A DNA stretch of 31,760 nucleotides from IMG/VR virus record IMGVR_UViG_3300025276_000121, positions 1 to 31,760 of that record; one strand, 5' to 3'. Made by a program: the position numbers and the translations under genes. Each line of letters starts with the position of its first letter. Positions within the stretch are counted from its first letter, which is position 1. The notes beneath the pieces are model-generated. The model made no database searches. It was not told the origin of the DNA and saw only the letters and a program-made list of their open reading frames with translations. This DNA is from a virus. Positions 12,131-28,952 of the stretch are shown here, piece after piece.

Positions 12131-15100
12131 ATGGCTGAATTAATACACACGTTCAATTCGGGGAGAATGAATAAAGATCTCGACGAGAGATTAGTACCTA
12201 ATGGAGAGTATAGAGATGCATTAAACCTAGAGTTAGCATCTTCTGACACATCTCAGGTTGGTTCTTTCCAGAATATAAAAGGTAATTTAGAGTTACGTAA
12301 TAAAACTTACAACCCTAAAACAAAGATATATAACCAATGGTTAAACTCTGAGTATATTACAGCATTGAATTCTCCAGTTTGCATAGGAGCTAAAACAGAT
12401 GAAAACTCTAATGATGTATATTGGTTCATAGCATCTACTGCAATTAGTGTTATAGCCTATTATAATTCTAAAACAAAGTTAACTACACCATTAATTGTTG
12501 ACACACAAGGTGTATTAAATTTTAGCTCAAATCACTTAATAACAGGTATTAACGTACTTGAAGGTATGCTTATTTGGACAGATAACCAAACTGAACCAAA
12601 AAAAATACTTATAAAAGACTGGAAGAGTTCTACACCTAATTTTGTAACGCATTCACAGATATACAGTAGAAGCTTCATAGAAGATGATATAACGGTAATA
12701 AAAAAATATCCACTACAACCACCTGTAGTAACTGCTTATTCTACAAAGCAAGTAAATCCAGATGGAAGTCCTGGAGCAAATGTTGACACAAACGTATTAA
12801 CCAGTTTTTACGAAACTCCACCAGGTGCACCAGCTGGCACTATTAGACCAAAAGCAATAGGTAGCATAGTTGCTTTAACTTGGTTATCTAACACACCACC
12901 TGTTTACGCTGAAGGAGACGTACTTCTGTTAACTAATTCAGGTAATGATCCTTTGGATGTAGATGCTGTTATAAGAGTAAAAGTACAACCTAACCCAACA
13001 CAGTTAGGTGCTAACGTTGAAGTTCTTTCTATTGGTGTACCACTAGAGGGAATAACACTTACTAATCTTCCATATGATGTAACACTAGAGCAGCAACCAC
13101 CATTTTTTGAAATGATATTTGCTAGATTTGGTTACAGGTATAAGTATAAAAACAACGAATTATCTGCATTTTCACCCTTTTCAAACATAGCGTTTATACC
13201 AGGTGGTTTTGATTACTCTCCAAGTCAAGGTTATAATTTAGGTATGACTAACAACATAAGACAGTTAACTATATCTAATTTTGTACCTAATACAACTTTG
13301 TATCCAGACGTGGTCGCTGTTGACATACTTTATAAAGCTACAAACAACTCTAACGTGTACATAGTAGACACTTTTACGGACGAGGATACAGAGTGGAATT
13401 CAATCATAGGCGGTAATCTAGGTTCTTTTGATATAGACAGTGAGATAATAACCTCGGTTGTTCAGTCTAATCAAATACTTAGACCTTATGATAATGTTCC
13501 TAGAAAAGCAAAAGCACAAGAGATAACTGCTAATAGATTACTTTTTGGTAATTATACTCAAAATTTTAACTTATTGAACAATGACGGTTCTAAATTTAAA
13601 ACCAACATAGGTGTTACTACAAGTTCACTACTTGTAAGCGCTGGTCTAGATGAGTTTGGTAATGCTGAAGGCATTAGTATAGACGGAGAGCAGGTTGCTG
13701 AATCTGTTAAATCTATAAGAACTTATCAAGTTGGAGTAGCTTATATGGATAAATACGGTAGGACAACACCTGTTTTTACTAGTAATACGGCATCTGTAAC
13801 CGTTTTAAAAGAAGAAGCTGCTGGTTCTACTAAATTAATCGCTACATTAAATGGTAATGGTAATAATCCGACTTTAATACCATATTATGAGCAGAATAAG
13901 CAATTCCCTTACTTTAAGTACTACGTAAAAGAAACATCGCGTGAATACTATAATTTATCATTGGATAGGTTTTACAATGCAGAAGATGGTAATCTTTGGT
14001 TATCTTTTCCATCTGCAGAAAGAAATAAGGTTGATGAAGACACATTCTTAATACTAAAAAAAGGTCATGATAACTTCACTCCTGTAACTGAAACAGCTAG
14101 ATATAAAGTTATAGCTATAGAAAACGAAGCCCCAACATACTTAAAAGAAACTAAACTATCAATGGGTACAATGAGTACTCAGTTTGGTGTTGTAGGATTT
14201 CCTATAGAAGGTGTTAATGAAGTTGCTGTAACTAAAAGTGCTTTCGATGCTCAATTTGGACAGCAAGCTAGAGAGACTTCAGGTTTATTGATGAGGGTAA
14301 AAACTGGTGGTAATGCTAGTAATTACTATGAAATATCTACATTTGGATTAGACGCATCTAACGCTAATGTCCAAATAACTGTTGCTGGCGCATTTGGACC
14401 AGACATGAACTTCACATCTACAGAACCTTATAGTCAGCAAAATGCAGTACCCGGTCTATCACTTGAGTTGATTAAAGTAGAAACTAAAAACAAACCGGAG
14501 TTTACTGGTAGATTTTTTGTGAAAGTGTTTCAAGACGACGTTTTACGTAGAGAGATATCAAGTGCATCAGCTAATGTAAATAGAACTTATGTTAGAAAAG
14601 CACTAGGATTTTTGTACTGGAAAACCGGTTATAACGGTACCAGGACTTTTTGGCGCAATAGTTGGAGAACACCTGATGCACAAAATTCAGCACAGAGATT
14701 GTTTTTAGATCAATCATCTTTTGGTAATGGTCCAGTTACAGGAAAAGCTATAGGGATACAACCAAATACAATGGAAATAAGTTGGAGTGGTGGTTATGGT
14801 ATTTACTCGGGAGCCGGCCAGGAGGGTGCTGATCCACAATGGGGTGGTATAGCGACAGCAAATCCACCACTACTTGAGCAGCTGGATAATATTGGTACGC
14901 TTTTTAGATTCATAGATACTGGTAACGGAAAAGAGGATCCAGAAGGTACTATATACCAGGTAACAGCTTCTAGTGACAGAAAAACATATACCTACAACTT
15001 CGATAATGGTGTTGGTTTGTATGATCCTGAAGATGGAACTAACCAGATAACAAGGTGGACAATAACATATAATGTTTTGGATAGCTGGGAAAGTGTTCAA

Positions 15101-18100
15101 TGGAATCCTATTAATAGCCCAGGCGGAATATCTCAATGGTCTTCTGGAACATCTGATTATAGTAACTCTTATATAGGTATAGAATTCATAGAACCTTTAG
15201 ACACTGATGAATCTTTTACCACTAACAATCCAGCTATATTTGAAACAGAGCCAAAAGAGGCAGCTGAATTAGATATATATTGGGAAGTACCTAAGATCTA
15301 CAATAGTAGTACTGATGCAAGCACTCCACACACTTTAGATTTCTTTAATTGCTATTCATTTGGTAATGGTGTTGAATCTGACCGAATTAGAGACGATTTT
15401 AATCAACCTACAATTAACAATGGTGTTAAAGCCTCTGCCACTTTAGACGAGCCATACAAGGAGGAGCACCGTAGCAATGGTATAATATTTTCACAGATAT
15501 TCAATTCTATATCAGGAACAAATAACTTAAACCAGTTTATACAAGCAGAAGGAATAACTAAAGATGTTAACCCAGAATACGGTAGTATACAAAAACTACA
15601 CACTAGAGATACTGACTTGATAACGCTTTGCGAAAAGAAGTCTATGAAGATACTCGCTAACAAGAATGCTTTGTTCAACGCAGACGGTAATACAAACCTA
15701 ACATCGAACCAAGCTGTACTTGGAAGCACTTTAACGTTTCAAGGTGAATTTGGTATAGCTACTAATCCAGAGTCATTTGCTGAGTTTGGTTTTAGAATTT
15801 ATTTTACAGATGCAAATAGAGGTTCTGTTATAAGACTTTCTAGAGATGGTATTACTGATTTATCTAACTATGGAATGCACTCTTTTTTCTCAGACAATCT
15901 ACCTTTAAATAACAATGTAATAGGTACTTGGGATACTGACAAGAGAAACTATAATATAACTTTAAATTCTTTAACACCTTATTGGCAACAAACACTAGGT
16001 GCAGGTAGTTTTGATAGACTAAACAAGCATGCTCTATGCGATCAATTTGTAAACTCTCTCCCAACAACAAGTACAACTATTTCATATAAAGAAGCAGTAA
16101 ATGGTTTCACATCTAGAAAAGTCTACATGCCTGAAGCTGGAGCTTATCTAGATAACTCTTATTATACATTCAAGAATGGTAGGATATGGGAACATGGTGT
16201 AAACGAAAAGCGAAATACTTTTTACAATATAGGGCCTGATACTGTTAGTAGCACATTAAAAGATGGTAATCCTTATTACGAAAGTTCATTTAACACTATA
16301 TTCAACGAAAGTTCAGAGGCTGTTAAAGGTTTCAAAACACTAAACTACAGCGGAACTAAATCAAAAGAATATACGTATACGATAGGAGCATCTATTACTG
16401 GCAGAAGATATTCACTAGCTGAAATACAGGCAAATAACTTAATACCCACTGCCTCATCAGAGACAGATGGTTGGTATGTGAATTCTATATTGACTGATCT
16501 TCAAGAAGGTGAAATTAAAGAGTTCGTAGAAAAAGAAGGTAAATACTTCAACTACATAAAGGGTATGCCTACTTTCTTTACAACAAATTGTAACACAAAT
16601 GTTGATTCTAGTGAATTCAATGTACAAGGTATCGGTAGAGCTACTACTATAGAGGCGCCAGGTGTATCACAATACAATGTTACAAATGAGGTTAATCCTG
16701 ATTGCTCTACTAACATATCGCCTCCTGTAATATATAATCAGAATTTTGAGGTTGTTGAAGATACAGCAGGTACATTTACTATTGCACAGTCTAACACGTG
16801 TAGCTCAGCTATAACCTTTGAACTAGGAACAGACTCGACAACTAGCGGTGTATTTGTATTTAATGCTGCTGGTAGTTTTACTTTTAACCCAGATGCAGAC
16901 TACAACGGTTCTGCTGGTTCATTTACTGTTAGAGCTTGTTGTGGTGATGTTTGCAGCAACTACGCTGTAATGAGTATAATTGTAACACCTGTGGCTGATA
17001 GCCCTTACTTTTCAAGCAATCCAGCTCTACCTTTAAACAACTTAGTAAACGGAGACACTTGGGCTTATCCAAATATTACTTTACTTGATAATGACCACCT
17101 TTCTAGTCAACTAGTTATAAACCCCGTTGTTGGCATGCCTTCATGGATGGCTCAGCCTACACCAAAGAATGACGGAACTGACGAGTGGGAAATAGCTACA
17201 AGCACAGTAAGTGGCGGAGCTAGTGGCATAAGTTTCACAATGTTTGTGAAAGATCCTGACGGTAACCTAGGTGAACAAACCATTACAGGTTCCGTAATAG
17301 ACGTAGCTGTACCGGATACTTCAAAGTTTTTCATTAAAACATGGACCAGTGTTGGACCTGCTGAGACTATTAATATAGAGCCAGAGAGTTCTGCTCAGAA
17401 TGCAAAATGCTTGATAGATGGTTTCTATGAAGGTCAAGATCAAAACTATAATTTAATGTCTAATACCAGCGTGTCATTTAAGTACTTTTTAGAAGACGAT
17501 CTTCAAGTTGGCACTCAAATGTACAATAGCTCAACAAACGCTCCAATAGCTTCAGCGGGTGTGTATTTGTTTGCGAATGGGCAATCAGTTTTGACTGCGC
17601 AGTTTGGACACTCTGGACTAGATCCAACTAACTCTGAAACCGTACCTACTACGTACTTTATGATGGTTTTAAATAGTTCTGGTATAATAATAAACTATGT
17701 TCAATATAGCCAATTAGCTGCATGTGAAGATCCATGTACCTACTGGCCTACTTCAGAGTCAGGGTCTAGCGATGGTTATCGTGTTGAAGAAGGATACATA
17801 AATAATGTAACCAACGCTTCTATTAATTTCTCTGAGTATGGTAATTACACGTCAGCATTTTGCCAAGCATACAACGCCATGTTAGCTTGGGAGGCTGATT
17901 CTAGACCCGTTTGTACCACTACAATTAACAATAGTTGTAAGAGTCGTCAAAAATTAGTGTCGAGGATTTATTGGCTAGACAATGGCTGTAACCCAGGAGC
18001 AAGTCCATTTGATTTCAATGTAGGTGATAAACTTTTTGAGAGAGGCCTTTTTAATCCTGAAGTAAGTGATTATTTCTATCACCCAGTAGTTAACCGTAGA

Positions 18101-18259
18101 TTTATGACTGATACACTGCCATATAGCTCTGAATTTTGGAGAACTCTAGGATCTGGGTATAGTACACCACGTGTGCTAATAGAAACTAATAGCCTTGGAG
18201 TGTGTACAAGAAAGGAATTATTTTCAGACACTAACTGGGATTACACCGCCTGCCCATAA
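12131..18259 (+). CDS. Giant tail / DNA-stabilisation protein with adhesin-like C-terminal domains
   Basis: 2042 residues. The N-terminus (HTFNSGRMNKDLDERLVPNG, then EYRDALNLELASSD) is the hallmark of the stabilisation/tail-tubular family, comparable in role to T7 gp12 or P22 gp10. A conserved block follows near residues 595-680 (KYYVKETSREYYNLSLDRFY, LWLSFPSAERNKVDEDTFLI). The C-terminal part is different. About residues 1540-1625 resemble a VCBS/tandem-95 cadherin-like repeat (FTFNPDADYNGSAGSFTVRA, then IVTPVADSP). About 1626-1722 read as a second Ig/cadherin-type domain with a WxxxP core and KDPDGNLG. The last 320 residues are Cys-rich. The protein therefore appears to join the tail nozzle to surface-binding modules. 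It is about three times the size of simple family members. Confidence 0.78.
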   Translation: MAELIHTFNSGRMNKDLDERLVPNGEYRDALNLELASSDTSQVGSFQNIKGNLELRNKTYNPKTKIYNQWLNSEYITALNSPVCIGAKTDENSNDVYWFIASTAISVIAYYNSKTKLTTPLIVDTQGVLNFSSNHLITGINVLEGMLIWTDNQTEPKKILIKDWKSSTPNFVTHSQIYSRSFIEDDITVIKKYPLQPPVVTAYSTKQVNPDGSPGANVDTNVLTSFYETPPGAPAGTIRPKAIGSIVALTWLSNTPPVYAEGDVLLLTNSGNDPLDVDAVIRVKVQPNPTQLGANVEVLSIGVPLEGITLTNLPYDVTLEQQPPFFEMIFARFGYRYKYKNNELSAFSPFSNIAFIPGGFDYSPSQGYNLGMTNNIRQLTISNFVPNTTLYPDVVAVDILYKATNNSNVYIVDTFTDEDTEWNSIIGGNLGSFDIDSEIITSVVQSNQILRPYDNVPRKAKAQEITANRLLFGNYTQNFNLLNNDGSKFKTNIGVTTSSLLVSAGLDEFGNAEGISIDGEQVAESVKSIRTYQVGVAYMDKYGRTTPVFTSNTASVTVLKEEAAGSTKLIATLNGNGNNPTLIPYYEQNKQFPYFKYYVKETSREYYNLSLDRFYNAEDGNLWLSFPSAERNKVDEDTFLILKKGHDNFTPVTETARYKVIAIENEAPTYLKETKLSMGTMSTQFGVVGFPIEGVNEVAVTKSAFDAQFGQQARETSGLLMRVKTGGNASNYYEISTFGLDASNANVQITVAGAFGPDMNFTSTEPYSQQNAVPGLSLELIKVETKNKPEFTGRFFVKVFQDDVLRREISSASANVNRTYVRKALGFLYWKTGYNGTRTFWRNSWRTPDAQNSAQRLFLDQSSFGNGPVTGKAIGIQPNTMEISWSGGYGIYSGAGQEGADPQWGGIATANPPLLEQLDNIGTLFRFIDTGNGKEDPEGTIYQVTASSDRKTYTYNFDNGVGLYDPEDGTNQITRWTITYNVLDSWESVQWNPINSPGGISQWSSGTSDYSNSYIGIEFIEPLDTDESFTTNNPAIFETEPKEAAELDIYWEVPKIYNSSTDASTPHTLDFFNCYSFGNGVESDRIRDDFNQPTINNGVKASATLDEPYKEEHRSNGIIFSQIFNSISGTNNLNQFIQAEGITKDVNPEYGSIQKLHTRDTDLITLCEKKSMKILANKNALFNADGNTNLTSNQAVLGSTLTFQGEFGIATNPESFAEFGFRIYFTDANRGSVIRLSRDGITDLSNYGMHSFFSDNLPLNNNVIGTWDTDKRNYNITLNSLTPYWQQTLGAGSFDRLNKHALCDQFVNSLPTTSTTISYKEAVNGFTSRKVYMPEAGAYLDNSYYTFKNGRIWEHGVNEKRNTFYNIGPDTVSSTLKDGNPYYESSFNTIFNESSEAVKGFKTLNYSGTKSKEYTYTIGASITGRRYSLAEIQANNLIPTASSETDGWYVNSILTDLQEGEIKEFVEKEGKYFNYIKGMPTFFTTNCNTNVDSSEFNVQGIGRATTIEAPGVSQYNVTNEVNPDCSTNISPPVIYNQNFEVVEDTAGTFTIAQSNTCSSAITFELGTDSTTSGVFVFNAAGSFTFNPDADYNGSAGSFTVRACCGDVCSNYAVMSIIVTPVADSPYFSSNPALPLNNLVNGDTWAYPNITLLDNDHLSSQLVINPVVGMPSWMAQPTPKNDGTDEWEIATSTVSGGASGISFTMFVKDPDGNLGEQTITGSVIDVAVPDTSKFFIKTWTSVGPAETINIEPESSAQNAKCLIDGFYEGQDQNYNLMSNTSVSFKYFLEDDLQVGTQMYNSSTNAPIASAGVYLFANGQSVLTAQFGHSGLDPTNSETVPTTYFMMVLNSSGIIINYVQYSQLAACEDPCTYWPTSESGSSDGYRVEEGYINNVTNASINFSEYGNYTSAFCQAYNAMLAWEADSRPVCTTTINNSCKSRQKLVSRIYWLDNGCNPGASPFDFNVGDKLFERGLFNPEVSDYFYHPVVNRRFMTDTLPYSSEFWRTLGSGYSTPRVLIETNSLGVCTRKELFSDTNWDYTACP

Positions 18260-18279
18260 CCTTAAACAAAATAATTACT

Positions 18280-19578
18280 ATGGCTTTTCAAAACTTTACA
18301 GTAAATGTAGTTAGTTTTCCTGCGACAACGGGATTGGACTGGACTAATTCGTATTCTCAAATAACACTAACAATAACACCTGATACGGGTTACTCTGTAG
18401 ATGCTAATAATTTTTCTCCAATAGCACCTCTACCTACCTATGTTAATAGTGTTACTTTCACGCAAAACGGTACTAATATAGATTGCATCATAGTCTATAC
18501 TTCACCTAGTATAATGCCTGCCGCAGATGTGTTAATAGCATTATGTATACAAGGCTTTGCTTCTGAAGCTCCTATAGTAATAGGTGGTACACTGAAAAGT
18601 GGTGGTATAACTAATGTGTCTACACCATCTGCCGGTGATTTACCTAGTAACTTTAGTGGAAGTGGTAAGTGGGATTCCTCATTAACGGTTTTTACACAGG
18701 CGGTAGTGGCTTCAACTGGTTATTATTTTAAAACAAAACCAGTATTATCAATAAGCAAAGGAAATAGATCAGAGTATACAGTAACTAGCATTGAAACACT
18801 TGATCCTAAAAAGAGGTTAATACAAGTTGTTTTTTCTGTTTCTTATAAGTTCCCTGTAAACGATGTTTCAGGAAATGAATTTGTATTAATAGCTAACGCT
18901 ATCCAGTACTACAATCCTCTTGTTAAAATAACAGCGTATAAATTTAACACAGGTACAGTTGTAAACGCCGGAGGTGATACTAGAAATTTTACTATATACG
19001 GAATAACAGGTGCTAATTGGGCTTTAATAGGCTCATATGTTCCAGGCAATGTTATTGTAGTTAACGCATCAGGTGTAATAGATGGAACAGGTAAAGCTGT
19101 GGTCAGCGTTATATTTCCTGCAACTACAAATGTAGATAGAACATACACTTTCACACTAACTGGAGATTTAGCAACTAGCTTCAATACTGCTAATGGGCAA
19201 ACATCTACACCGTCTGTGATTCAATATATACAATCAAGTTTATCACTTGCGTTTACAAGCACAAATGCCGCCGTTACTCCCGGCTCTCCTGTTATTAGGT
19301 ACTTCTTACCTTACACTTCAACTTCTACAGTAGAATATACAGTGACAGCAACTTCTAGCCAAACAATTACTGTAGCAAATAATCCACCACCAGCTATTCT
19401 ATGGACAGGTCAAGATGGAGTTTCACCGGAATATATAATTGAGGTTTTAAGTCAAGATTTTGTAGTAAACAATTTGTCTTCTCCTTCAACACTGACAGCT
19501 AACGTGGTTGTAAGGGTGTTTAATGCGGGAGCTGTTTCCAAAGCTAGCGTACTTGATTTAGATAATGTATTGATTTAA
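18280..19578 (+). CDS. Beta-rich tail appendage protein, probably Ig-like domains
   Basis: 432 residues with hardly any charge: Thr, Ser, Val, Asn and Gly dominate, and predicted strands alternate throughout. The N-terminal part contains ITLTITPDTGYSVDANNFSP, resembling bacterial surface Ig/BACON-type modules. The later parts (about 205-300 and 300-425) have similar repeating strand patterns with TYTFTLTGDLA and VEYTVTATSSQTITV. No enzymatic motif is present. The location between the long tail protein and the ejection proteins suggests a fibre, a head-surface fibre or a tail accessory that binds glycans. It could be a receptor-binding protein. Start ATG after ATAATTACT; no Shine-Dalgarno. Confidence 0.6.
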   Translation: MAFQNFTVNVVSFPATTGLDWTNSYSQITLTITPDTGYSVDANNFSPIAPLPTYVNSVTFTQNGTNIDCIIVYTSPSIMPAADVLIALCIQGFASEAPIVIGGTLKSGGITNVSTPSAGDLPSNFSGSGKWDSSLTVFTQAVVASTGYYFKTKPVLSISKGNRSEYTVTSIETLDPKKRLIQVVFSVSYKFPVNDVSGNEFVLIANAIQYYNPLVKITAYKFNTGTVVNAGGDTRNFTIYGITGANWALIGSYVPGNVIVVNASGVIDGTGKAVVSVIFPATTNVDRTYTFTLTGDLATSFNTANGQTSTPSVIQYIQSSLSLAFTSTNAAVTPGSPVIRYFLPYTSTSTVEYTVTATSSQTITVANNPPPAILWTGQDGVSPEYIIEVLSQDFVVNNLSSPSTLTANVVVRVFNAGAVSKASVLDLDNVLI

Positions 19579-19591
19579 TAAATAATAAAAC

Positions 19592-19918
19592 ATGGATGAA
19601 ATAATATTAACATTCCCACAGCCAATAAACGTATCTGTACAGGTAGGTGATACCGCGTATTACACTAACGACATAAATGGTGTAGATATAGCAATAATAG
19701 GACGTATAACCGCTATAACAACATACACAGTTACAGCGGATATAGATCCCTACCAGATAAGACCTACGTTAAGTAGTTTTATATTGTTTAGTAAAACAGC
19801 AGATGTTAATACTAGTGGGCTAAAAGGCTATTACGCCGAGGCACAGATTAAAAATGATTCAATCGAATATGCTGAATTATTCCTTGTTGGATCTGAAATA
19901 TTTGAGAGTAGCAAATAA
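19592..19918 (+). CDS. Small beta-type structural protein
   Basis: 108 residues. The sequence is beta-rich (EIILTFPQPINVSVQVGDTA, YYTNDINGVDIAIIGRI), and then has the segment ILFSKTADVNTSGLKGYYAE followed by AELFLVGSEIFESSK. This C-terminal pattern (SKxxxxNTSGLKGYYAE...AELFxVGSEIFESSK) is one I recall from tail/virion proteins of Bacteroidota and marine phages. The role is unknown. By position between the fibre-like protein and the ejection proteins it is probably a small virion component. It ends 32 bases before the next gene. No transmembrane or catalytic signatures. Confidence 0.65.
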   Translation: MDEIILTFPQPINVSVQVGDTAYYTNDINGVDIAIIGRITAITTYTVTADIDPYQIRPTLSSFILFSKTADVNTSGLKGYYAEAQIKNDSIEYAELFLVGSEIFESSK

Positions 19919-19950
19919 TGTGTGATAATAAACTATAAAACAATATAATA

Positions 19951-20586
19951 ATGGTAGGAGCAATAATGGGAGCTGTAGGAGGAGTAACGCAGATAGCGGG
20001 AGGACTCATAGGTGCAGGTAAAAGAAAAAGAGAAGCTAGAAGTGCATCGAAAGAAATGGAGATGAGAAAAGCAACCTATGCAGGTGCTGATACGTCTAAC
20101 GTATATTCTAACATGGAAAATACCATGGAAGATCTAACTGTTAATACACAGGCAGCAGACTTTCAAGCACAACAACAACAAGCTGGTTTATCCAATATAA
20201 TGGGTCAAATGCAAGGTGCCGCTGGAGGATCAGGTATAGCGTCTCTAGCTCAATCAATGGCTAATCAACAGAATCAAAACTTACAAGTAGCGTCAGCAGA
20301 TATAGGTAGACAGGAGCAGTCTAATCAAAGAGCAGAAAGACAGCAGGCTGGTAACTTACAGTTATACGAAGCAAAAGGTGAATTAATATCAAGAGATGCT
20401 GAGTCTGAAAAAAATGAAACACTACTAGGTATGGCACAACAGAGAAGTGCAGCGGCTAACGAAGCTGTTCAAGCTGGTAAGGATTCCATAATGAGTGGTA
20501 TTGGCTCTTTAGCTGGTGCTGCAGCTGGTGGAGTTGGCGGTGGACAAGGAGGTTTCTTACAAAACCTAGGTATGCCAACTAGATAA
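19951..20586 (+). CDS. Internal virion (ejection) protein, T7 gp14-like in layout
   Basis: 211 residues, the same size class as T7 gp14. The N-terminus is a Gly/Ala-rich hydrophobic segment (MVGAIMGAVGGVTQIAGG, residues 1-18) followed by a basic patch (GKRKREARSASK). The middle is a Gln/Ala-rich helix without aromatic residues (about 60-180), and the C-terminus is again Gly-rich and hydrophobic (IMSGIGSLAGAAAGG). Such proteins leave the head with the DNA and form a pore in the outer membrane. It is the first of three consecutive genes of decreasing simplicity and increasing length, the order found for gp14-gp15-gp16 in T7. Identification is by layout and composition, not by sequence identity. 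Confidence 0.65.
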   Translation: MVGAIMGAVGGVTQIAGGLIGAGKRKREARSASKEMEMRKATYAGADTSNVYSNMENTMEDLTVNTQAADFQAQQQQAGLSNIMGQMQGAAGGSGIASLAQSMANQQNQNLQVASADIGRQEQSNQRAERQQAGNLQLYEAKGELISRDAESEKNETLLGMAQQRSAAANEAVQAGKDSIMSGIGSLAGAAAGGVGGGQGGFLQNLGMPTR

Positions 20587-21995: not shown

Positions 21996-24900
21996 ATGGA
22001 CGAATTAAATGATATTGTTCAAAATATGATTGACGCAGGTGAGTCAGAGCAGAACATTAAAACAGTAATAGAAGGCTATAAGCCGCAAGAAGGACCAATG
22101 ACTATGGATGAGTTGGAGAGAAGAGCGGGAAAGCCACAAGACTCTGTAAGTGCGGATCCAACTGCGGAGTCAAAAAGTATGGGTTCAACATTGGAAGAAC
22201 CTTTATCGGCTTGGCAATCTATTAAAAACTCATTCTCAAACCTAGGTGAGCAGATAGGAGATGTAAAAGAGTTTTGGTTTGATGATGATGGTGCATCCTC
22301 TTCATTAGATGTAGCAACTAATGCTGTTTACAGTATGGTGTTTGGCCAAGAAGCTGTAGATGAATGGGTAAACGAACATGATCCAAATGACACATTTAGT
22401 GTTAGAGGGCTAGGTACTGAGGCAACTTTAAAAAACATAGAAAAATATAGAGAAGAAAAACTAAAATCTAAACGAACCGTAGGTATAATAGATAGTGTAC
22501 AAGAAGGTGATATTGGTGGTATTTTAGCTGGTAGTATAAACGCTGTGACTAGTATGCTTGGTAGTGTAGCTTACGGTGCTGGTACTTTGATGACTGGTTT
22601 TTTCATGGATTACGCTGCTGAGAACTATGTTTCATTTAACGAAATGAAAGCTGAGAATGTAGGTTTAAGTTTAGATGAGCTAATAAAGTCCGGACAAGCT
22701 GATACAGCTATTCCAGTTGGTATGGCAGCGGTTTCTCAAGGTCTAGAAGCGTTCGGTATTGGAACTGTCCTAAAAGCTGCGAAAGGAGCTACTAAGGGAG
22801 CCGCCGGCGGAGGATCAACCGGATTACTAGGCATGGGTAGTAAATATCTTGCTGAAAAGATAATATATAACAAGAGCGCTAGAGCAACAATGAACGTTCT
22901 TTCCACTGGTTTAACAGAAATGTCTACTGAAATACTACAACATGCTGCAGATGAAGTAAACAAGGAGTATGGTAGAGTTTCTGGAACAGAAGAAGAGGCT
23001 AATGCTGGTAAAGCATTTATAGATGCTGTAACTAGTCAAGAAGGCTGGGAAGCAGGTATACAAGGTTTTATAGGTGGTGGTGGTATGGTTGGTGGTACTT
23101 ACTCCGCTAAAGCATTGAATAGTATAAGGACTGTAGTAGATGGCGAAGCTATAGAGACAAATATAAACGAGTTGTCAGGTCTTAGAAGACAAATGAAACA
23201 AGCTACTGACTCAACCGTAATACGTGGTTTACAGAGCAAGATAGACGCTAAAGAATCCGAAATATCAGCTTCTATAGTTAATGGTAATGAAATATACGAG
23301 AGTTTAGATCCAGCACAAGTTAAGGAGATAGATAATCTTACAGATCTAGCTGACGCATCTGCTTTTAATATAACTGAACTTAACAAGAAGTTAAGAAGAG
23401 GTGATATATCTGAATCTCAATACGAGTCCGCTAAAGAAGGTTTTACTATAGAGTACGACTCAGCTAAGTCTAAACTAGTTGAGATGAGGCTAGGCGAAAA
23501 TATAGAATTTGCAAGAAAAGAAGCTGGTAAAAGAGGTTTAGAAGTTGAGGTTTTCGAAACTACAGCTGAAACAGAACAAGCCCTGGAAGCTACCAATGTA
23601 AAAGAAGAAGGTAAACAAGAGTTTAGAGACTCTAAGAACAACATAGCTGGTTTTGCTGTTGGTAGAAAGATATTTATAAACAAAGAAGTTGCTAGAAACA
23701 CAGGTGCAATAAATGTTGGTAGTCATGAGCTATTACACCCTATACTTAAGGTAATGGTTGGCGACACAGAGGCTCAAGGTAAAATAGTTAAACAGTTTAG
23801 AAAAGCAATGACAACGACACAAAGGAGAGTTGTTGATAAGCAAATGCGAGACAGAGGGTACACTTCAACTAGTCAAGTAGCTACAGAATACATAAATGTA
23901 TTTTCAGACGCTTTAGCTAAAGGTCAAATAAACTATGACAAAACATCTATGGAAAAGATAGGTGGAGCTATTGTAGGTTTGTTTAAGCCTAAGGGTTTTG
24001 AAAATATATCTTTTGAGAACGGTCAAGATGTTTACAACTTCATGAAGGAGTATGACAAGAGTGGTAAGAAGGGGAAACTAACCAAAGCGGCTAAAAAAGC
24101 AATAGATAGTGAAGGTAAGATGATGAACACACCAGTGCAGAATCTATCAAAAGATGGTGATATAAAGAAAAGTCAATCAAAACCCGATGTATCGTTTTCT
24201 AAAAATAAGGTAGCAGACCTAGAACAAGAACTAGAAACTCTAGAAGATCTAGAATACGAGTTAGATCAAGATGATTTTATAAATCTAAAGTCTAATCTAG
24301 AACTTAAGATACAAATGGCTAAGAAAAGCCAAGCTAAATCTGCTGAGGAAGGGCCTAAAAAGGCAGATAAAGACACTAAGAAAAAAGAAGATAAAGAAGG
24401 TAAGAAGAAAGACAAAAAAGAGAAAAAGAAAAAGAAAGAAGCAAATAAGCTAGCCGGTAAGTACAAGGAGGGAAATATAACAGCAGCTGAAGAAGCAGAG
24501 CTAGTTAAGCAATACCAAGCAATAGCTGTTGAAGCTCTTGGCTACAAGGAGGTAAAAGGAAGTATAACTAGAGCTGAAGCTGTTTCTTTTGTCGATCAAT
24601 TCTTTGAGGGTATACTTAATAGGTACAATCCTTATACATCTAAATTCTCTACATATATAAACAGTAACATAAGACCTAAGAGACAGGCTTTTTATCAGCA
24701 GGAGATAGGTGATGGTTACTTAAGTAGAATTGACGATCCAGAATACAAGAAGCAAATAGCTAATCAAGAGGTTGAAAGAACTACGGCTGTATCTGCTGAA
24801 AATGAAAAGAAACTCATTGACGTGAGAGATAGTAGGTACGTTAAAGATAAAATGACAGATATAGAAAATGCTGTCGACGTTAAACCAGAAGAGTTTTCTT

Positions 24901-27900
24901 TCTACACATTTAAGGTTGTTGCTGATAAGTTTGCTGGTAAAGTTGCTCAGATAATATTTGGTATACCATTGAATAAGATAGAAAACCCTCAAGCTAATTT
25001 AACATACGCTAAAAATTGGGTTGATGGATATCCTGAAAAATCTGAAGCTGGTCGTATACAGGATCTGTTTAGAACATCTCAAGAGGCAAAAAACTTTATA
25101 AAAACACTACCTGAATTCAATATAGCTGGTAATGAGGTTAATGTTAACGAGACAGGTGAGATAATAGATGTTTCAGTTACTGCTAAAGGTTATTCTCTTA
25201 ATACACCTGGTCTATTATTGAAATTGCTATATGAACCATACATAGATAAAAGATCTAAGAGTGATGATGTTTATAAAAAAAAGAAATCTATAACTTCACC
25301 CAAGGGTAGAAGTAAAGGTGCTACTTCTCAAACAGCTGTTGTAAGACTTAAGCCTCAATTCAGAGGTAGGATAACACCAGACGCTGTACTAGAGCTTCAA
25401 GAGGCTATGGGTATAACGCCTAAGAATCAACTTAACAATTATGATAGAAAAATAGGTCAGCTTCTTAAAGGCGCAGCTAAACTATACGGTACTAAAGTTG
25501 CCAATGTCGTTGTTAGAGATAAGATTAATAAAATGGATATCAAGACTGCAAAGTCTAAAACTCAAATATTAGCTGATGTTGGAGCTGGTAAAAGTGATAT
25601 ACAGTTTTCTAAGAAGATACGAAAAGAATACACTTCTATATTAGAGAAGAATAGACCTGAACTAGACAGTAAAGTAATAGACGAGCAAATAAGTTCTGTG
25701 TTTAACTGGGTTGATTCACTTAAATTAAAAGATAGTCAAAAATCTAAGTATAAGAAAGTTGCACTTTATTACATAGCTAAGAGTAACGTTATATTTCCAG
25801 AAGATGCCGCAAAAGTACGTGAAGCTATACGTGTAGCTAGTATGAAGGGCTTAGACCCAATGAGTGTTGAAAATCCTAATACTTTAATAGAAAAATTTAT
25901 AGACGACGTTAAAGAAGCAAGAATAGACCCTAATACTGTTCCAGAGTTGTTTAATAAAAAGTCTCTACCAGAAGGTGTTGAAACTTTTAACATATATCCA
26001 GATGATCAAGGTCAATTAGCGGCTAGAAAAATACTGGAAAACCACTGGGGAAAAGAGTCTAATCCATGGTGTGTATTATATGCTGAAAGAGCTTTTACTG
26101 AAGATCAAGTAAGAAGAGGGATAAACCTACAAGAACAAAAAGGAGAAGCTAACTCAATGCCCGTGGGTGTTAAGGAACAAGTAACTAGCGTTAGAACAGT
26201 TATTGGTGGTATAACAACCGAAAGAAACCTTAATCCTGATATACGTGTTCTAGTTGCCCCTGGCAAAGTGGATTATAAAGATGTAAGAGGAAATTTTGAT
26301 ATCAATAACACTAAAGGCTGGTTTAGAAAAGCGTATGAGGATAGCGATTTCTTAGGTAGCGTTATGGTTAGAGGCGAAAACGGTATGATGGTGGAGAAAG
26401 AAACATATTTAGATACGTATTTTCTTCCAAAAAACCCAAACATAACTGAAAGTGAGTTCTATGATGGTAAATCTAAAGGAGGTACTGTATATATAGAGGA
26501 AAAACCAGCTGGAAAACCTGGGTTAACTAAGCAATCAAAAAAAGACTGGAAAGGTTACGGTGAGTTTGACACAGGTCAATACAACACACCTACGCAGCCT
26601 AGAGGTTATGAAATAGCTTTTAAGAATGGTAGGTTGCTTTCTCTTAAAAACCTTGGTAACAAAGACACTACAGCTCAACCTCAATGGTGGGACAGAAACG
26701 ATAAACCAACAAAAGACCTAGCGATAGTAGTCCCTAGAGATGAAGACGGTGAGATAAACGGTAACTATACCGTTATGAATACCGAAACTGGTAAAACTTC
26801 TGAGATTAATTTTTCTAAGACAAACAAAGTTGATTTATCACTAGATAATCGCATTGATAATACTACTTTTGATCTTTCACAAGATAATTTTGCTAAAGCA
26901 TTAGATGCAGAGCAGGAGATATCGTTTAGCAGGAATCCAAGCAAAGCATTCAATGATATAATAGAAGATGTTACAGGCATAGGTTCTAAGAAAAAGTATT
27001 CATACGCCAAGGGTAAAGTTAGAGGTGATAAGAAAGGCAGGTTTAAGTTTTTTATACCACCTTCAGCAGATGATTTCGCTGGGCTGTTATACAAGCTAAC
27101 AGGTAAGGGTAAACAAGGTGAAATGCACAGGGCTTTTTATAAAGAAAAGCTATTTGATCCGTTTGCTAAAGGTATCAGGGATTTTGAAGCATATAAAGAG
27201 AAAGTTTCTAAAACTATATCAACTCTAAAGAAAAAGATAAAGAATGTCCCTAAAGGTCTTGGTAAAGTTAATGAGACTGGCTTTACTAATGATGTAGCTG
27301 TTAGAGTTTATCTTTGGAACTTAATGGGTACTGAAATACCAGGCATGTCTAAAGGTGATCAAAAAGCATTAGTCGCTATAATTGAAGCAAACCCAGATTT
27401 AAAAAAGTTTGCTACTCAAGTCAAGGTGATATTAGGTGGTACGTATCCTGACCCTAAAGGAGATTGGTTAGCTGGTACTCTTACCACTGACGTAATAAAC
27501 ATGATAAATACCACAAAAAGAGAAGAGTTTCTTAAAGAGTGGCAAGATAATGTAGATATTATATTCCAGGACAAGAATATGAATAAGCTTAGAGCTGCTT
27601 TTGGAGATAACTATGTTGAAGCAATGGAAGATATGCTTTATAGAATGAAGTCTGGTAGAAATAGACCTAATGGATCAAATAAACTCACTAATAAGTTTAT
27701 GAACTGGATAAATGACTCTGTTGGTACTATAATGTTTTTTAACACTAGATCAGCATTACTACAAACTTTATCCATAGTTAACTTCGTTAACTGGACAGAC
27801 AATAGTCCTATAAAAGCCGCTAAAGCTTTTGCAAATCAAAAACAGTTTTGGGCTGATTTCTCTATGTTGTTCAATAGTGATTTTCTAAAACAAAGAAGAT

Positions 27901-28952
27901 CTGGTTTGAAGAATGATATAAATGCAGATGAAATAGCAAGTGCTGCTGCCACGGCAACTAACAAATCTAAAGCTGTTCTAGCTGCTATATTGAAGGCCGG
28001 TTTCTTACCAACACAAATTGCAGATAGTTTTGCTATTGCAATGGGTGGTTCTTCTTTCATTAGAAATAGAATAAATAAGTACAAGTCTGAAGGTATGAGT
28101 GATCTTGAAGCTAAGAAACAAGCTTTCCTTGATTTCCAAGAAACAGCTGAAGAAAACCAACAATCATCTAGACCTGATAGAGTTTCACAACAACAAGCGA
28201 GTCCATTAGGGCGCATTATATTAGCTTTCGCGAATACCCCAATGCAATATGCCAGATTAACAAAAAAGTCATTCCTGGACCTTATAAACAGACGTGGGGA
28301 TCAAAAGACGAACCTCAGTAAGTTGATGTATTATACTTTTGTGCAAAACGCAATATTTTCGGCGTTACAATCGGCTTTGTTTGCAGCTTTCTTTAACGAC
28401 GAGGGTGATGACGAGTTAGACGATAGAGAGGTAAAAATAGCAAACAGTATGTTAGATACTTTCTTAAGGGGTTCTGGTATATATGGTGCAATACTTTCTA
28501 CTTCTAAAAATGTTTTGCTTGAAATAAAGAAACAGAACGACTCTGATAGACCAGACTTTACTAAAGCAGCTATAAAAACATTAGATTTATCTCCACCAAT
28601 GTCTTCCAAGATGAGGAAGCTGATGAGTGCTGCTAGAGCTTTTAGTTATAAAAAGACTAGGGAAAAAATGACTGGTTATGGCTTAGACAATCCAGCTTAC
28701 TATGCTGGTGGACAAGTTATATCTGCTATAACAAACGTGCCTCTAGATAGAGCTATCAAAAAAGCCGACAACATAAGAGTTGCTATAGATGAAGACACTA
28801 AAATGTGGCAGTCAATATCTTTATTATTAGGTTACAGTCAGTGGGATTTAGGTTTAATAAATAAAAAGGAGAAGAAGGGCTTGCTAAATAAGATGAAGAT
28901 GAAGAAAAGAAAGCTTGGAGGTAGAAAATTAAAGAAAAGACAACTAAAATAA
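21996..28952 (+). CDS. Giant polyvalent ejection protein with zincin, sigma-like and membrane regions
   Basis: 2318 residues, third of the ejection trio and far larger than T7 gp16. Segments seen in order: a short helix (1-30); glycine-rich hydrophobic stretches (about 165-370) able to enter membranes; a metallopeptidase site HELLH (577-581) with a candidate third ligand Glu631; a Lys-rich linker (about 788-815); a sigma-region-2-like stretch (about 829-905) including RYNPYTSKFSTYINSNIRPK. Next comes a module with PWC (1357-1359), AFKNG (near 1540) and WWDR (1564-1567). A long C-terminal helical part contains hydrophobic stretches (about 1908-2125) and a basic tail. The motif (D/E)hxFS(K/R) recurs four times. 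The role is inferred: channel building plus delivery of effector domains. No lytic transglycosylase motif seen. Confidence 0.75.
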   Translation: MDELNDIVQNMIDAGESEQNIKTVIEGYKPQEGPMTMDELERRAGKPQDSVSADPTAESKSMGSTLEEPLSAWQSIKNSFSNLGEQIGDVKEFWFDDDGASSSLDVATNAVYSMVFGQEAVDEWVNEHDPNDTFSVRGLGTEATLKNIEKYREEKLKSKRTVGIIDSVQEGDIGGILAGSINAVTSMLGSVAYGAGTLMTGFFMDYAAENYVSFNEMKAENVGLSLDELIKSGQADTAIPVGMAAVSQGLEAFGIGTVLKAAKGATKGAAGGGSTGLLGMGSKYLAEKIIYNKSARATMNVLSTGLTEMSTEILQHAADEVNKEYGRVSGTEEEANAGKAFIDAVTSQEGWEAGIQGFIGGGGMVGGTYSAKALNSIRTVVDGEAIETNINELSGLRRQMKQATDSTVIRGLQSKIDAKESEISASIVNGNEIYESLDPAQVKEIDNLTDLADASAFNITELNKKLRRGDISESQYESAKEGFTIEYDSAKSKLVEMRLGENIEFARKEAGKRGLEVEVFETTAETEQALEATNVKEEGKQEFRDSKNNIAGFAVGRKIFINKEVARNTGAINVGSHELLHPILKVMVGDTEAQGKIVKQFRKAMTTTQRRVVDKQMRDRGYTSTSQVATEYINVFSDALAKGQINYDKTSMEKIGGAIVGLFKPKGFENISFENGQDVYNFMKEYDKSGKKGKLTKAAKKAIDSEGKMMNTPVQNLSKDGDIKKSQSKPDVSFSKNKVADLEQELETLEDLEYELDQDDFINLKSNLELKIQMAKKSQAKSAEEGPKKADKDTKKKEDKEGKKKDKKEKKKKKEANKLAGKYKEGNITAAEEAELVKQYQAIAVEALGYKEVKGSITRAEAVSFVDQFFEGILNRYNPYTSKFSTYINSNIRPKRQAFYQQEIGDGYLSRIDDPEYKKQIANQEVERTTAVSAENEKKLIDVRDSRYVKDKMTDIENAVDVKPEEFSFYTFKVVADKFAGKVAQIIFGIPLNKIENPQANLTYAKNWVDGYPEKSEAGRIQDLFRTSQEAKNFIKTLPEFNIAGNEVNVNETGEIIDVSVTAKGYSLNTPGLLLKLLYEPYIDKRSKSDDVYKKKKSITSPKGRSKGATSQTAVVRLKPQFRGRITPDAVLELQEAMGITPKNQLNNYDRKIGQLLKGAAKLYGTKVANVVVRDKINKMDIKTAKSKTQILADVGAGKSDIQFSKKIRKEYTSILEKNRPELDSKVIDEQISSVFNWVDSLKLKDSQKSKYKKVALYYIAKSNVIFPEDAAKVREAIRVASMKGLDPMSVENPNTLIEKFIDDVKEARIDPNTVPELFNKKSLPEGVETFNIYPDDQGQLAARKILENHWGKESNPWCVLYAERAFTEDQVRRGINLQEQKGEANSMPVGVKEQVTSVRTVIGGITTERNLNPDIRVLVAPGKVDYKDVRGNFDINNTKGWFRKAYEDSDFLGSVMVRGENGMMVEKETYLDTYFLPKNPNITESEFYDGKSKGGTVYIEEKPAGKPGLTKQSKKDWKGYGEFDTGQYNTPTQPRGYEIAFKNGRLLSLKNLGNKDTTAQPQWWDRNDKPTKDLAIVVPRDEDGEINGNYTVMNTETGKTSEINFSKTNKVDLSLDNRIDNTTFDLSQDNFAKALDAEQEISFSRNPSKAFNDIIEDVTGIGSKKKYSYAKGKVRGDKKGRFKFFIPPSADDFAGLLYKLTGKGKQGEMHRAFYKEKLFDPFAKGIRDFEAYKEKVSKTISTLKKKIKNVPKGLGKVNETGFTNDVAVRVYLWNLMGTEIPGMSKGDQKALVAIIEANPDLKKFATQVKVILGGTYPDPKGDWLAGTLTTDVINMINTTKREEFLKEWQDNVDIIFQDKNMNKLRAAFGDNYVEAMEDMLYRMKSGRNRPNGSNKLTNKFMNWINDSVGTIMFFNTRSALLQTLSIVNFVNWTDNSPIKAAKAFANQKQFWADFSMLFNSDFLKQRRSGLKNDINADEIASAAATATNKSKAVLAAILKAGFLPTQIADSFAIAMGGSSFIRNRINKYKSEGMSDLEAKKQAFLDFQETAEENQQSSRPDRVSQQQASPLGRIILAFANTPMQYARLTKKSFLDLINRRGDQKTNLSKLMYYTFVQNAIFSALQSALFAAFFNDEGDDELDDREVKIANSMLDTFLRGSGIYGAILSTSKNVLLEIKKQNDSDRPDFTKAAIKTLDLSPPMSSKMRKLMSAARAFSYKKTREKMTGYGLDNPAYYAGGQVISAITNVPLDRAIKKADNIRVAIDEDTKMWQSISLLLGYSQWDLGLINKKEKKGLLNKMKMKKRKLGGRKLKKRQLK
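24186..26936 (+). repeat. Four copies of a (D/E)-h-x-F-S-(K/R) motif within the giant protein
   Basis: DVSFSKN (731-737), DIQFSKK (1201-1207), EINFSKT (1603-1609) and EISFSRN (1641-1647), where h is a hydrophobic residue. They lie at likely joints between the zincin, sigma-like, PWC/WWDR and C-terminal parts, and two of them flank a 38-residue spacer. They look like linker or processing sites; this function is inferred. Confidence 0.7.

Follow-up and report, generated by a model that had tools for sequence, protein, structure and literature searches.

The muzzle protein of the virus record IMGVR_UViG_3300025276_000121 ends in a long C-terminal extension, joined at a site that serves related phages as an optional, modular attachment point. 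The distal modules carried there have been swapped between distant muzzle genes. We consider it fairly likely, from domain content and pattern of exchange, that the extension is an evolvable arm by which the DNA gate binds surfaces. In the window (the whole stretch of DNA analysed here, 31,760 nucleotides), a single open reading frame at 12131-18259 on the plus strand encodes 2042 residues, made up of a muzzle core (residues 1-1507) and the extension with its four domains, Ig1, Ig2, D1 and D2. A sequence-only reading had claimed about 500 extra residues after the conserved part, close to the 535 that follow core residue 1507. It had placed adhesin-type repeats at 16751-17310; this interval (residues 1541-1727) does take in almost the whole of the two Ig domains, yet it is only part of the extension, which spans about 16652 to 18256. 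The features are as follows.

12131-16651, plus strand: muzzle core, a crassvirus-type tail muzzle (nozzle), residues 1-1507, recognised by phrog_14478, by crAss_MUZ_C in relatives and by tblastn
16271-16561, plus strand: muzzle C-terminal domain (PF25729), residues 1381-1477
16652-16708, plus strand: linker, residues 1508-1526, where many relatives end (tails of 18-25 residues)
16709-16996, plus strand: Ig1, a tandem-95/Big_9 Ig domain, residues 1527-1622
16997-17326, plus strand: Ig2, a second Ig/cadherin-like domain, residues 1623-1732, a beta-sandwich in the model, its family found on other muzzles
17327-17746, plus strand: D1, a recurrent muzzle-terminal domain, residues 1733-1872, with a conserved cysteine pair at 1760 and 1865
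17747-18256, plus strand: D2, residues 1873-2042, found only in the window and in its nearest relative
18280-19578, plus strand: fibre-like neighbour gene of 432 residues, a homologue type fused to the muzzle in nine related phages

By its profile and alignment matches, the protein is over residues 1-1507 a crassvirus-type muzzle, a term that denotes the muzzle family and claims no membership of Crassvirales. The core matches phrog_14478 at E 1.7e-120. The crAss_MUZ_C profile scores 19.7 bits on the window core, below its cut-off of 27, and matches all 12 aligned muzzle cores of relatives (best E 1.1e-18), three of which are also matched by the crAss_MUZ profile. By tblastn there are matches to 87 phage records (Flavobacterium, Cellulophaga, Tenacibaculum and others), and the named relatives belong to Pervagoviridae, Pachyviridae and Elemovirus. 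The gene sits in the virion block, preceded by terminase, portal and further head genes, in an order similar to that of phi38:1 and elemoE. In PDB sequence searches the core matched no solved muzzle chain, phiCrAss001 gp44 included. The phiCrAss001 muzzle gp44 (PMC10172136) belongs to the same protein family by profile, and by homology to it the protein is taken here to form a hexameric gate at the tip of the tail. Length variation of that muzzle is put down, in the portion of the report used here, to insertions in the crass and IG2 domains, and its two Ig domains are internal (PMC10172136), whereas the Ig and D domains described here follow the C-terminal domain. When the window is compared with L003, its nearest relative (L numbers label related muzzle loci or contigs), the core varies most at residues 801-1020 (14531-15190), with 72% identity, a dN/dS of 0.31 and 12 gap columns; this stretch perhaps corresponds to the known crass/IG2 insertion zone. 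Residues 1381-1507, directly before the extension, are 93.7% identical between the two.

The first half of the extension is an Ig pair. Ig1 matches Big_9 over residues 1531-1603 with 30.5 bits, above the curated cut-off of 23.6, and the NCBIfam tandem-95 model (tand_rpt_95) matches the extension at E 7.6e-8, its single copy reaching 32 bits against a cut-off of 90. The tandem-95 domain announced by the sequence-only reading is therefore present, and the motif it quoted lies at residues 1583-1602 (16877-16936). The predicted Ig1 superposes on an Ig domain from the neck/collar of phage Milano (Z 10.0, 2.1 Å, 83 residues). The second Ig/cadherin-type domain that had been expected corresponds to Ig2. 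As predicted beta-sandwiches the two superpose with Z scores of about 9-10 on tandem cadherins, and with one of 9.2 on the staphylococcal adhesin SraP, at its cadherin-like end, so that domain profiles and fold matches together bear out the appending of adhesin-type modules to a muzzle. Bacterial cadherin-like profiles stay below their cut-offs (Cadherin_4 17.7 against 25.1 bits, Cadherin_5 15.9 against 26.5), and the likeness of the modelled pair to cadherins is one of fold only. Pfam scans of the window at E 1 or better gave no match to the VCBS family. Counting duplicates of the window and of one contig, Ig1 is present at 22 muzzle loci; it is also found in 16 further open reading frames, each beginning close to the muzzle end. 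With the same duplicates counted, the Ig2 family occurs in the muzzles of 16 loci and in the open reading frame next to the muzzle in L043-L045.

With an Ig fold, a C-terminal position on a virion protein and an optional presence among relatives, the pair has the marks of phage-type Ig-like extensions, which have long been known at the C-termini of phage virion proteins (PMC5009743, citing Fraser et al. 2006). In contrast to the extensions treated in the part of that source used here, the present one is in frame rather than made by frameshifting, is placed on the tail gate, and is joined to a non-Ig terminal family that alternates with PARCEL repeats or with a whole fused gene. Expression by frameshifting was considered for the window and rejected: core and extension form one open frame, as they do in L003.

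The distal half had been described as a Cys-rich end. The cysteine content is indeed high (14 in the 535 residues of the extension against 5 in the 1507 of the core), but this end is not a mere tail; it comprises two folded domains, D1 and D2. A search with five D1 copies found 29 viral contigs with D1. In all 29 the match lies within an open reading frame with muzzle-core similarity, at the muzzle C-terminus, and 18 hold two or more copies; judged from these matches, D1 is a muzzle-specific family in the sample of 29 contigs. Every one of the 36 aligned copies keeps Cys1760; 34 keep Cys1865, and the remaining two show a gap at that position. This conservation suggests a disulphide between the two cysteines. 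Neither Pfam nor PHROG gave a match to D1 in the window. Three queries (E 1 / E 0.1) found none in 50,697 phage records, and thus no cultured phage with D1. The domain is modelled with a pLDDT of 86.6 and a pTM of 0.82. Foldseek hits in PDB and BFVD all fell short of E 0.001 (the best had 0.14 and 0.13, the closest viral structure being a protein of Virus NIOZ-UU157 at E 0.13), and the best Z by VIA-align was 2.2. Lack of a structural match to this model is no proof that the fold is new.

D2 is likely to be a second D1 copy that has diverged. The two models resemble each other in their succession of two strands, a helix and then more strands; hhalign gives 70% (E 4e-5) for D2 against a profile of second-copy D1 domains, and the placement by MAFFT fits a second copy. 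Against the pooled D1 profile the match is marginal, and a shorter D2 is not significant (probability 0.35%).

How variable is the muzzle C-terminus? Muzzle genes were sampled by core (the best 80 of 399 confirmed relatives), and tail lengths were counted in the 54 non-redundant complete muzzles of this set alone, because the D1 scan enriches D1. Muzzles cut by contig ends, broken ones (e.g., L005, L089) and L010, whose core match ends at 1367, were left out, and L043 and L044 were scored as short despite a split Ig1. The tail after the core has at most 60 residues in 25 of the 54, 61-130 in 5, 131-350 in 5 and more than 350 in 19. Nearly half of these muzzles have no extension, which is therefore not essential, and the C-terminus is not conserved across the family. 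L003 has the same four parts in one frame, its core 88% and its extension 65% identical to those of the window. Other relatives carry Ig1 alone (L004, L008), Ig1-Ig2 followed by a different end module (L012-L015, L031), tandems of D1, D1 with a weak BNR repeat match (L053), Thr-rich stretches (L028, L029, L033) or DUF285/PARCEL repeats (L020 and L082, E 2e-109 and 2e-117, the former also matching the PARCEL model). Even sisters or near-sisters can be wholly different: L034 has a tail of 21 residues and L087 an Ig tail of 115, with cores 82% identical, and L015 (Ig-Ig-X) and L082 (PARCEL repeats) have cores 79% identical. The expectation that the C-terminus would vary while the core is kept is thus borne out.

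The history of these modules is separate from that of the core. For the core tree, 92 muzzle open reading frames (3'-closed, filtered by core coverage) were reduced to 75 without near-copies and to 74 rows after dropping L016, which has a broken frame. Architecture labels were assigned by hand from domain and tail comparisons. On this tree, a quick one built without a mixture model, 18 changes account for the eleven architectures (the minimum being 10 and the mean after shuffling 43.9); for D1, starred branches force at least five. The window and L003 fall, on branches with SH-aLRT 99-100, in a clade of 19 rows (SH-aLRT 100) whose other 17 rows are without D1. In the D1 tree the same two group with L047, L086, L092 and L096 (bootstrap 93, SH-aLRT 95, a branch not starred). 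Between the window and L086 the D1 domains are 50% identical and the cores 46%; between the window and L003 the D1 domains are 55% identical and the cores 88%. For the latter pair, the proportion of synonymous differences is 0.37 in the core, 0.38 in Ig1-Ig2 and 0.65 (0.56-0.72) in D1-D2, compared with 0.15-0.47 in 12 neighbour genes. The conflict between the two trees, together with synonymous divergence raised only in D1-D2, shows that distal modules are exchanged between phages. The separate, older history of the D1-D2 tip suggests that it was replaced through recombination downstream of the Ig pair. The dN/dS is low in D1 (0.27) and D2 (0.20), with dS near saturation, so the modules are maintained as proteins under purifying selection. 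High dS with low dN/dS argues for exchange and not for an arms race on point changes. As for a diversity-generating retroelement, there is no template-like repeat in 16500-20000.

What might such an exchangeable end do? The muzzle core would close the tail, gating the passage of DNA and cargo; assuming a hexamer as in phiCrAss001, each virion would bear six copies of the extension. Six arms of 535 residues (about 350 kDa) would hardly fit inside the channel, so the arm should lie outside it. The Ig pair would then be a two-domain spacer and D1-D2 the terminal domains that contact a ligand on the flavobacterial host surface, and binding by the arm would act directly on the gate protein. That surface-type modules (Ig, PARCEL, BNR-like, stalks, a fibre gene) are absent from close relatives and are exchanged is the pattern expected of host-contact parts, and the earlier suggestion that the arm presents a binding surface is plausible. 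Against a contact arm, D1 gives no fold match that would suggest binding, and, since nearly half of the sampled muzzles do without an extension, receptor binding may reside in other genes. In a bolder version, D1 would be a new receptor-binding domain of muzzles in uncultured flavobacterial phages, uniting receptor recognition and DNA gating in a single polypeptide, a swappable tip whose contact is passed directly to the gate by pulling on it, with whole tips traded between distant phages to change host; we put this forward tentatively, as a possibility that could well fail.

Alternatively, the extension may provide generic stickiness or transport, its Ig modules binding weakly to glycans of particles, mucus or matrix and so raising the number of encounters without a specific receptor. 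Ig-like extensions are optional and mobile on many phage structural proteins (PMC5009743, in the part used here), and the Ig domains are likewise optional in the present sample, where they occur on two different genes. We nevertheless regard this explanation as unlikely, as it accounts neither for a dedicated D1 family that always sits on muzzles, often in tandem, nor for a raised divergence between the window and L003 that is confined to D1-D2.

A structural role is somewhat less likely still. The extension could brace the tail or dock the neighbouring fibre-like protein (18280-19578), varying with its partner. The neighbour family has the Ig1 family in common with the muzzle; nine of the phages sampled (L049, L056, L060, L061, L066, L070, L073, L076, L077) have a muzzle fused to a tail that matches downstream genes of other loci, and in L043-L045 Ig1 is split between the muzzle and the neighbouring open reading frame. 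However, muzzles without an extension have such a neighbour gene too, and in the window its synonymous divergence is only modestly raised (0.47 against 0.65 in D1-D2).

Recent capture of the extension from surface adhesins of the host, as the sequence-only reading had it, now appears very improbable. Big_9, cadherin-like and PARCEL modules are, by their family names, typical of bacterial surface proteins. Yet in a pattern scan of 84,980 prokaryote species genomes, which has limited sensitivity, D1 was confirmed in none of 27 candidate stretches, and the bacterial matches of the Ig pair were seven Vibrio loci with generic Ig domains at 30-33% identity. Moreover, every module apart from D2 has its relatives on the muzzles of other phages or on the gene adjoining the muzzle. 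A misassembly joining the muzzle to an unrelated gene, conceivable in a metagenomic contig, is practically dismissed by L003, which stems from a different phage and shows all four parts in the same arrangement within a single frame.

The surface-binding arm that we favour has counterparts elsewhere among crAss-like phages, described here from parts of the reports. Tail-associated proteins of crAssphage carry tandem BACON domains, spread by duplication and horizontal transfer and proposed to bind the host (PMC6949934). The extension resembles them in its tandem domains near tail genes, its spread by duplication and transfer and its proposed role, but its domain is a different one (Pfam scans of the window gave no BACON match at E 1 or better) and is placed on the muzzle itself. 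The tail fibres of zeta crAss-like phages, proposed trimers, combine Ig-like spacers with a C-type lectin tip diversified by a retroelement (PMC12386605). Both arrangements set an Ig-like spacer before a terminal domain; here, in contrast, the carrier is the muzzle, the terminal domain is another one and diversification proceeds by module exchange. The muzzle tails of L020 and L082 resemble PARCEL repeat surface proteins (PMC2996958), whose repeats are absent from the window. In L106 and L115 the muzzle ends in D1 and a short stretch of PARCEL-type repeats, and the 399-residue gene that follows resembles the PARCEL tails of the L020 and L082 muzzles. Among the titles and abstract openings listed in literature searches that covered few subscription journals, no description of such a muzzle extension was found. 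The crass domain of the muzzle has been credited with surface contact (PMC10172136, in the portion used here); for host finding by crassvirus-type phages and for the trigger that opens the muzzle, a hypervariable, exchangeable arm offers a second, testable candidate beside it. In addition, D1 can serve as a marker domain for such arms in uncultured phages.

Several observations concern the genes around the muzzle end. The 432-residue neighbour itself matches neither phage records nor PHROG, nor any Pfam family significantly, and its family is very uneven in length. In the cultured phages phi38:1 and elemoE (L009, L011), the short muzzle tail matches a separate protein of about 126 residues that follows the muzzle in L066, L070, L073, L076 and L077; by these matches, this is another fusion or fission at the muzzle end. 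A scan for out-of-frame extensions hidden after short muzzles mostly met the normal neighbour gene, a split Ig1 being seen only in L043-L045. There, the muzzle frame stops (TAA) inside Ig1 (12500-12700 in L043), and the next open reading frame starts two bases on in the -1 frame and holds the rest of Ig1 together with Ig2. The muzzle end might complete the Ig fold of its neighbour by strand exchange. Further downstream, at 21996-28952, the window encodes a protein of 2318 residues, with no significant family match, that bears one HELLH motif (HExxH-type, zinc-protease-like) at residue 577 and is perhaps an injected cargo protein.
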